DNA of 64,000 nucleotides from Brevibacillus sp. (lineage in GTDB: Bacteria; Bacillota; Bacilli; Brevibacillales; Brevibacillaceae), in contig JACDOF010000003.1 of assembly GCA_017656235.1 (NCBI GenBank), forward strand, positions 124,001 to 188,000, read 5' to 3'. This document shows positions 14,329 to 56,645 of the stretch, piece by piece. Positions within the stretch are counted from its first letter, which is position 1, and the number at the start of each line of letters is the position of its first letter. Under the pieces are notes generated by a model that was not told the origin of the DNA, did not search any database, and saw only the letters and a program-made list of their open reading frames with translations. The position numbers and the translations under genes are program-made.

Positions 14329-14401
14329 ACGGGGACCATCCGCGGATCGCTTCGCAGCGGGCAGTCGTGCATCTTTAGGGGGAGGCGGCCATTTTCCATG
14401 C

Positions 14402-14871
14402 CTCACTCCGTGGCCAACCACCGGCGGGGCTGAACCGTCCGCTCCGCACCCCCGAAGCGGGCGGGCGCAAAAAGCAGCGCTGCTGCGCCGTTTTGTCAGG
14501 GTTGCGCCCGTATGCCCCCGCTTCGGGATTGCTCCGCTGGGATGGTTGGCCAAGTCGTTCATTTGGAAAATGGCCGCTCTTCTGTCAGAACACGCTTTGT
14601 AAACAATCTGCAGGATATCAATGGCATCTTGTGTCGAACAGGGCACCGTACAGTGCTGAACGAGTTTCAAAACTCTCGCCTGAGACGAGTGCGGGCGATT
14701 TTTCGCCAGCGAACGGTTTGGCCAACCTGCCAGCGAAACAACGAATCCGCAGGGAAATCGCAGCGGCAACAGCGTCACGTCGGCAGCGGGACGTCGTTTT
14801 GACGCTGCCCCTGCGGATCGTCATGAAGCGGTCTTGGACTGCTTCTTCGCTGGTTGGCCACCGAGAGTGAG
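14402..14871 (+). mobile_element. Dispersed TIR element, complete copy A (470 bp)
   Basis: Ends are imperfect inverted repeats: CTCACTCCGTGGCCAACCA (14402-14420) and its complement with two extra bases at 14851-14871. Inside are two large palindromic arms. Arm 1: CCCGAAGCGGG (14451-14461) with CCCGCTTCGGG (14517-14527), containing GGGCGCAA/TTGCGCCC (14463-14470, 14502-14509) and the 12-bp palindrome at 14473-14484. Arm 2: ATCCGCAGGG (14745-14754) with CCCTGCGGAT (14809-14818). The sequence recurs, inverted, at 56124-56552 and in part at 46514-46770. No transposase or credible gene lies inside. It sits between the convergent 3' ends of ytoI and ytpI, together filling most of the 742-bp gap. 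It looks like a non-autonomous MITE; no clear target duplication is visible. Confidence 0.7.
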
Positions 14872-14916
14872 CGCGAAAAACGCCCCACTCGAGTTCACGA
14901 TACGTTGTCTCTCTGG

Positions 14917-14938
14917 GGGAACCAAAGGGTTCCCTTTT
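14917..14938 (+). terminator. Intrinsic terminator, plus strand
   Basis: GGGAACC (14917-14923) and GGTTCCC (14928-14934) with a 4-base loop, followed by TTTT. It probably ends ytoI transcription after the inserted repeat element. Confidence 0.6.
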
Positions 14939-46468: not shown

Positions 46469-46512
46469 GCTGTCCCCCGGGTTGCATCGACCCGGGGGAC
46501 AGCTCTTTTTTT
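46469..46512 (+). terminator. Intrinsic terminator of gapB
   Basis: GCTGTCCCCCGGGT (46469-46482) and ACCCGGGGGACAGC (46490-46503), a perfect 14-bp stem with a 7-base loop, then TCTTTTTTT. Confidence 0.95.
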
Positions 46513-46513
46513 C

Positions 46514-46770
46514 GGTGACCAACCAAACCAACAGAGTCGGAGCGGAAAAAGAGAACCTGTTTTCCTCGCTGAACTGTCCGCTTCGCCATCCCGAAGCGGG
46601 CGGGCGCAAAAAGCAGCGTTGCTGCGCCGTTTGTCAGGGTTGCGCCCGTATGCCCCCGCTTCGGGCTTGCTCCGCTGGAATGGTTGGCCAAGTCGTTCAT
46701 TTGGAAAATGGCCGCTCTCCTGCTGCCCCCGCGGATCGTTTCGCAGCGGGCAGTGGTGCATCTTTTTGGG
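46514..46770 (+). repeat. Partial mosaic copy B of the dispersed TIR element
   Basis: From TGAACTGTCCG (46569) to GGCCGCTC (about 46717) this is nearly identical to the left half of copy A, including arm 1: CCCGAAGCGGG (46590-46600) with CCCGCTTCGGG (46655-46665). The right half is missing. Instead a hairpin module follows (46723-46770, GCGGATCGTTTCGCAGCGGG) that in copy A lies outside the left end, at 14341-14377. The left border is diverged; GACCAACCA at 46517-46525 may be a remnant terminal repeat. It sits between the convergent 3' ends of gapB and the HD-GYP gene and fills most of that 368-bp gap. Confidence 0.65.
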
Positions 46771-46818
46771 CCAGGCAACAGCGCGAGCAGGACATTTGGC
46801 CCCTTCGGAACACTTTGG

Positions 46819-56123: not shown

Positions 56124-56552
56124 CTCACTATCGGTGGCCAACCAGCGAAGAAGCAGTCCAAGGCCGCTTTACGGCGATCCGCAGGGGCAGCGTCAAAACG
56201 ATGTGCCGCTGCCGACGTGATGCTGTTGCTGCTTCGATTCCCCTGCGGATACGTCGTTTTGCTGGCAGGTTGGCCAAACCATTCGCTGGCGAAAGGAACG
56301 CCCGCACTCGTCTCATACGAGAGTTTTGATGCAGCACCGGATCCCCTGATTGCCCGAAGTGCCGTCAGCATCCTGCAGATTGTATACATTGAATACAAAG
56401 CGAGTTCTGACAGGAGAGCGGCCATTTTCCGCGCTAACGACTTTGCCAACCATCCAAACGGCGCCGTCCCGAAGCGGGGGCATGCGGGCCCTCCCGCTTC
56501 GGGATGGCGAAGCGGACAGTCCAGCCCCATTGGTGGTTGGCAACGGAGTGAG
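56124..56552 (-). mobile_element. Dispersed TIR element, complete copy C (429 bp, inverted relative to copy A)
   Basis: The reverse complement aligns with copy A end to end. Termini: CTCACTATCGG...CCAACCA (56124-56144) and TGGTTGGCAACGGAGTGAG (56534-56552). Arm 2 is ATCCGCAGGG (56177-56186) with CCCTGCGGAT (56241-56250), the same 74-bp span as in A. Arm 1 is CCCGAAGCGGG (56468-56478) with CCCGCTTCGGG (56493-56503), but its loop is only 14 nt against 55 nt in A; this 41-nt difference accounts exactly for the length difference of the two copies. It lies between the acuA promoter and the 3' end of the penicillin-binding protein gene and fills most of that 741-bp gap. Confidence 0.7.
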
Positions 56553-56609
56553 GAAGGGATAATGGCCGACTCTCCCTATCCAGACACCCTTTCTCTGAGA
56601 CTGAACGGA

Positions 56610-56645
56610 TGAGAAGAAAGTGACCGTTCCGATTCGGAACGGTCA
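56610..56645 (-). terminator. Intrinsic terminator of the class A PBP gene
   Basis: TGACCGTTCCG (56621-56631) and CGGAACGGTCA (56635-56645), a perfect 11-bp stem with a 3-base loop. On the minus strand TTTCTTCTC follows. Confidence 0.75.

Follow-up and report, generated by a model that had tools for sequence, protein, structure and literature searches.

Palindromic MITE modules of Brevibacillus share their ends with an IS1182-family insertion sequence and often lie between duplicated stem-loops

The repeat at positions 14402-14871 of the analysed DNA (the window, a 64,000-nucleotide stretch of a Brevibacillus sp. contig) is, with a probability that we put at about 85%, a two-module composite of MITEs that are moved in trans by an IS1182-family DDE transposase recognizing CAGNNTGNAGACAAAG, with a stem-loop as target and the whole hairpin duplicated. 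This reading draws on sequence comparison, namely on the element ends, the identity of these ends between the MITEs and an insertion sequence (IS), the duplication of entire hairpins on the flanks, and a natural pair of empty and occupied sites for a related IS. That the IS1182 transposase is the mover of these particular MITEs is probable.

Copy number and true ends of the repeat family

Used as a BLAST query against its own genome, an assembly of 31 contigs and 3.6 Mb, the segment 14402-14871 gave 56 matches, far beyond the three copies seen in the window, which bears out the high genome copy number proposed in an earlier note on this DNA. A covariance model of the M1 core (see below) gave 55 matches in the same genome and the type-A module 41. 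The family is also abundant in two congeners (genomes G001 and G002), with 43 matches in one and 42 in the other. Short ORFs occur in several frames across the region, with no indication of a gene among them, and a search of phages and plasmids with the element returned zero matches.

The earlier note had placed the ends of the element at GGCCAACCA repeats. In an alignment of 16 copies with their flanks, homology extends approximately 50 to 60 bp beyond both GGCCAACC 'ends', out to a terminal inverted repeat with the consensus CAGNNTGNAGACAAAG; the GGCCAACCA sites are thus without fixed ends, an outcome that the note itself had named as speaking against its element. The family ends can also be written CAG..AGACAAAG (CAG..TG.AGACAAA in the form shared by the clade). 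A search pattern derived from CAGNNTGNAGACAAAG, with up to three mismatches allowed, had 89 hits in the genome; the reversed pattern, used as a control, had 10. As had been noticed from the window, the core motif recurs inside the element: GGCCAACC and GGTTGGCC are present at both outer and inner positions of the unit. That each unit has four GGCCAACC sites follows from its make-up: these sites are conserved inner arms, and two distinct palindromic modules contribute them.

Modular structure

In the 470-bp unit, two palindromic modules of approximately 260 bp are fused, first M1 and then M2, with a spacer of about 40 bp (14611-14650, plus strand, in the alignment of window copy A) that is missing or variable in some aligned copies. 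Inspected singly, the end sites delimit several module types of about 250 to 265 bp, each near-palindromic with an end repeat at each end. A third type, A (L054, L056, L058 and L078), has ends like CAGCCTGCAGACAAAG and CAGATCGCAGACAAAC. M1-like elements stand alone in two other species of the genus, with approximately 13 near-full copies in G001 and approximately 30 in G002 (73 to 76% identity to M1 over 200 to 240 bp). Because type A occurs alone, single modules exist and M1 is free-standing in the congeners, the view of the 470-bp unit as one element was rejected. The inner ends of the composite are degenerate, and the outer ends are presumably those with which it moves. Modules (250 to 265 bp) and composites (about 535 to 570 bp) are all below 600 bp, within the size range of MITEs.

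At one locus of the same genome (G000 C6:54732-55129; L061/L062), pieces of M1, M2 and type A are nested in one another. Elsewhere in this genome (G000 C10:89481-90409 and C11:46240-46898), copies of the repeat stand in tandem with identical match scores, which suggests that a segment was duplicated or that the assembly was affected by the repeats.

A probable partner insertion sequence in a sister species

Followed into the sister species G001, the end pattern led to transposase-coding elements of 1,545 to 1,546 bp and of 1,537 bp, with ends such as CAGCCTGTAGACAAAG and CAGATTGCAGACAAAC. Their transposases are 69% identical to each other and belong to the IS1182 family according to the NCBIfam equivalog NF033551 (486 and 479 bits; cut-off 270). 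MITE types A, M1 and M2, as well as the G001 MITE, match the ends of these IS over 14 to 16 bp, and beyond the ends the MITE interiors have nothing in common with them. The window repeats are probably MITEs of an IS1182-family IS.

PF05598 has 22 matches in G001 and two in G002; the draft genome that contains the window has no PF05598 match and no tblastn match to the IS transposase. The transposase with matching ends for which the earlier note had suggested a search exists in the sister species but was not found in the draft genome itself, and current mobility in that genome is doubtful because it offers no matching transposase.

A locus of this genome with a weak PF13751 match (L081; G000 C12:14960-18136) was rejected as partner, as it has no matching ends and a broken transposase; the transposase fragment adjoins a fragment of a group II intron reverse transcriptase gene. 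At its left end (L138:315-362), the partner IS itself forms a hairpin that includes a T run, AGCCTGTAGAC...GTCTGCAGGCTTTTTT; the right end (L138:1800-1860) folds too, and this IS may carry its own terminators.

A whole stem-loop is duplicated at the target

Directly outside the ends, the same stem-loop is found on the left and on the right, and it is a different one at each locus: AAAAAGGGAAGCCGGGTCGGCTTCCCTTTTT on both flanks of an IS copy (L140), AGGCACGAGTATCTCGTGCCT at a MITE (L184) and AGTATGTTCGGTTACGAACATTCT at a type-A copy (L208). In 32 of the 50 IS and MITE copies with both ends defined, the flanking duplication consists of one entire stem-loop of 19 to 31 bp. The scoring was ungapped, and a control in which left and right flanks of different copies were paired reached the threshold in 1 of 2,450 pairs. 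Among the MITEs alone, the target duplications that the earlier note had proposed to look for are present in 26 of 40 copies with both ends defined (19/26 in G002, 2/2 in G001 and 5/12 in the window's own genome); one of the six composites with defined ends in this last genome passes the ungapped test. By eye, approximately 10 of the 18 copies that fail it still have the same hairpin, changed by indels or in its loop.

Self-complementarity spans the duplicated segment from end to end: complementarity of the outer six pairs is 0.77 in register and drops to at most 0.34 when the frame is shifted by at least one base. The duplicated hairpins have a median fold z of -5.6, and a run of at least four T or A is present at the base of 20 of the 32 (3/32 control windows), which is what rho-independent terminators should show.

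The stagger of DDE transposases is normally short and fixed; the duplicated length here matches the target hairpin to the base pair (19 to 33 bp). If the stagger were long and only loosely fixed in length (about 20 to 33 bp), at sites chosen otherwise, for example downstream gene ends, the hairpin would be incidental; both the resemblance of the targets to terminators and a certain end preference (the duplication starts with A in 27/32 cases and ends with T in 21/32) would agree with this. However, both ends of the duplication fall exactly on the stem base, and moving the frame by a single base makes the pairing collapse. Such an origin is therefore very improbable, and the stagger tracks the hairpin and not a fixed distance. 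Since these ends are accurate to the base pair and the targets have no shared sequence, the target appears to be recognized by its structure rather than by its sequence.

As to the kind of element, the MITE reading of the earlier note was right, and is backed by the many copies, the inverted repeats at the ends, the duplicated targets and a sister-species IS with matching ends; its delimitation was wrong, and the composite nature and the hairpin targets had been overlooked.

At two loci (L207 and L210), and partly at a third (L199), one flanking hairpin looks inverted relative to its partner, and at another (L136) the loops of the flanking hairpins differ (GTTTT versus AGTTGT). These differences look like inversion of the hairpin or loop turnover after insertion.

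The same rule in related insertion sequences of Bacillota

Searching GTDB representative genomes with the two G001 transposases yielded 70 relatives, and ends could be located in 35. A duplicated whole stem-loop flanks 25 of these 35 copies; its pairing is 0.94 in register and does not exceed 0.36 out of register, and none of the 1,190 control pairs gave such a duplication. Among the hosts are Bacillus, Ureibacillus, Peribacillus, Priestia, Vagococcus, Gemmiger and Lachnospiraceae. In several of the remaining copies, the complete hairpin against one end is distinct from that against the other, a pattern that recombination between copies would produce. On plasmids, five of six IS copies have a duplicated hairpin, among them an annotated ISEfa7 relative with a hairpin duplication of 20 bp.

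When the flanks of the IS copy in the Listeria plasmid pLIS32 are joined via one 21-bp hairpin, the resulting sequence is identical to other Listeria plasmids at 400 of 400 bases. The comparison is one of an empty site with one hairpin and an occupied site with two, for a related IS and not for these MITEs. An Enterococcus case of an empty site agrees at 99% over 400 bp.

Against a small contrast set, duplication of the whole hairpin seems to be a feature of the clade with CAG..TG.AGACAAA ends and not of the whole IS1182 family: a direct repeat is absent from an IS1182-family copy next to fabI in S. epidermidis, the context in which IS1272 was described, while ISCfr1 has a repeat of 4 to 6 bp and a Sinorhizobium copy one of about 5 bp. 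For this transposase clade and its MITEs, it is fairly likely that across Bacillota the target is picked by DNA secondary structure, the stem-loop sets the stagger, the duplication is as long as the hairpin, and the host terminator is kept on both sides.

In the Bacillus pumilus plasmid pBP-T2 (L326), an IS1182-family copy with 45% identity to the partner transposase is flanked by the inverted arms GAATCTACTAAT and ATTAGTAGAT, as if the insertion lay inside a hairpin.

The covariance model R1 has matches in 33 of 39 genomes of the host family. Outside the genus, two of the seven matches inspected (L318 and L321) clearly show a CAG..TGTAGACAA end, in both cases directly against a terminator-like hairpin. 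A wide family membership was not accepted from these matches, as the other inspected ones are different palindromic elements (L317, L319, L320, L322 and L323); these resemble the family in build, have other ends (such as AAGAAGCATGTTCCC) and are probably separate MITE families.

Interior folding

The modules fold strongly, in agreement with the palindromic interior described from the window; the RNA fold z of the two window modules is about -5 to -6 (-5.25 for M1 and -5.72 for M2 in copy A). In 28 congeneric copies, pairing between the arms is kept through two-sided changes (81 cells versus 25 in shuffles), and the covariation score of the alignment is 0.190, against at most 0.047 when slid; because the copies are related, these counts overstate the number of independent events. 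The need for palindromic DNA, an RNA role and arm-to-arm conversion are possible causes of the kept pairing that these counts do not separate.

Such very stable folds, the paired changes that preserve pairing in the 28 copies and the intergenic positions would also suit structured intergenic repeats (REP/BIME-, ERIC- or SPRITE-like) with an RNA role, for example in termination or mRNA stability, the flanking hairpins being parts of the repeats themselves. This is improbable: the flanking hairpin is locus-specific and fits only its own partner, elements that encode a transposase follow the same hairpin rule, the empty site is entirely without the element, and kinship of the copies inflates the covariation counts.

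Proposed mechanism

In the preferred reading, that of MITEs with an IS1182-type mover, an IS1182-family DDE transposase would act in trans on the MITEs via their CAGNNTGNAGACAAAG ends, and its target would be a DNA stem-loop, usually a rho-independent terminator. The 3' ends of the element would attack the two 5' feet of the stem-loop, with strand transfer probably taking place while the stem-loop is extruded as a cruciform, and gap filling would then copy the loop and both stem arms on each side. The predicted outcome is an element between two complete hairpins, with the terminator of the host gene retained.

Sparing of the terminator may explain the accumulation of these elements: a complete terminator-like hairpin left on each side would allow a high copy number without damage to host transcription. 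The long and variable direct repeats of IS1182 would gain a simple rule for the clade with these ends, and annotators would obtain correct ends for the repeat family of this genus. As a natural record, the duplications may also reveal hairpins or cruciforms that form in vivo, and they may offer a direct route to testing the recognition of folded DNA by a transposase.

Comparison with known systems

The G001 IS has the same transposase family as ISCbo5, ISEfa7 and ISCfr1 (IS1182 family). The insertion sites of ISCbo5 are described as hairpins at gene ends, probably terminators (PMC3098183), and IS1182 direct repeats range from 2 to 60 bp according to ISfinder, as quoted in PMC7335449. In these particular descriptions of ISCbo5 and in ISfinder, the direct repeat is not identified with the complete hairpin, whereas here the two are equal. 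IS1272/TnSha1, also of the IS1182 family, uses stem-loop targets, often terminators, that lack a sequence consensus (PMC4923244, PMC5678879), and its insertion is accompanied by deletion of the target stem-loop (PMC4923244). Thus, IS1272 removes the stem-loop and makes no target duplication, whereas the present elements duplicate it; instead of a stem-loop lost at insertion, the empty site has one hairpin and the occupied site two. Duplication of the whole stem-loop was drawn by Wan et al. (2017) as a hypothetical pathway b, the replacement pathway being favoured for IS1272 (PMC5678879).

Pneumococcal BOX, RUP and SPRITE, Correia, ERIC and other bacterial MITEs (reviewed in PMC10969869) are likewise short, intergenic, foldable, high-copy and sometimes nested or mosaic. 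The present MITEs differ from BOX, RUP, SPRITE, Correia and ERIC in their ends and interior. RUP and Correia elements duplicate a TA target, whereas the duplication here is a hairpin of 19 to 31 bp.

Group IIC introns insert beside rho-independent terminators, and a reverse transcriptase gene is present at the rejected locus L081 described above; in principle, the elements could be carried into terminators by an enzyme other than the IS1182 transposase, for example the reverse transcriptase of a group IIC intron or an enzyme from another IS. The elements, however, have inverted-repeat ends that are the same as those of the IS1182-family IS and are accompanied by a target duplication, and neither the window nor seven copies gave an Rfam match at gathering score, group II intron structures included, so that involvement of such an enzyme is extremely unlikely.

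No description of an IS1182 MITE, or of a direct repeat equal to a hairpin, was found in the literature searched, which is weak evidence because subscription papers were mostly outside that search. The elements form a new MITE family within a known IS family. Their mode of insertion is a known mechanism in a well-supported variant, not a new class. The target rule is clear and general; it had been proposed earlier and, as far as could be found, apparently not shown before.

The three copies in the window

None of the three window copies has kept an intact target duplication. The homology of copies A and C claimed in the earlier note is confirmed by genome BLAST: copy C covers positions 1-65 and 105-470 of the query, with an internal deletion.

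Copy A combines parts of type A, M1 and M2 in a mosaic. The left end of its M1 is lost and replaced by a type-A fragment on the minus strand (14344-14376), which, read directly, agrees at 31 of 33 bases with the reverse complement of AAAGATGCACAACTGCCCGCTGCGAAACGATCC in type-A copies. The remaining near-palindromic M1 (14377-14610, plus strand), delimited by alignments and folding, contains a covariance-model match at 14408-14556 and ends on the right in the inner end CTTTGTAAACAATCTG (14595-14610). After the spacer follows M2 (14651-14915, plus strand; alignment and folding), with the outer end repeat ATACGTTGTCTCTCTG at 14900-14915. Against the right end of the copy lies a stem-loop, GGGAACCAAAGGGTTCCC followed by TTTT (14917-14938, plus strand), which by the rule from intact copies is likely to be the target hairpin of copy A; its left partner is missing.

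Copy B (46513-46817, plus strand) is a decayed mosaic, recognized by BLAST, the covariance model and sequence inspection, and consists of M1 (46513-46694) and a type-A fragment on the minus strand (46725-46817). A terminator-like hairpin with a T run (46469-46512, plus strand) lies to its left.

Copy C (56124-56603, minus strand) is an M1+M2 composite according to BLAST, alignment and sequence inspection; its outer M1 end is at 56588-56603, and the outer end of M2 is lost. A perfect hairpin, TGACCGTTCCGATTCGGAACGGTCA (56621-56645, plus strand), stands 17 bp outside the M1 end without abutting it, and is possibly the target hairpin of this copy.
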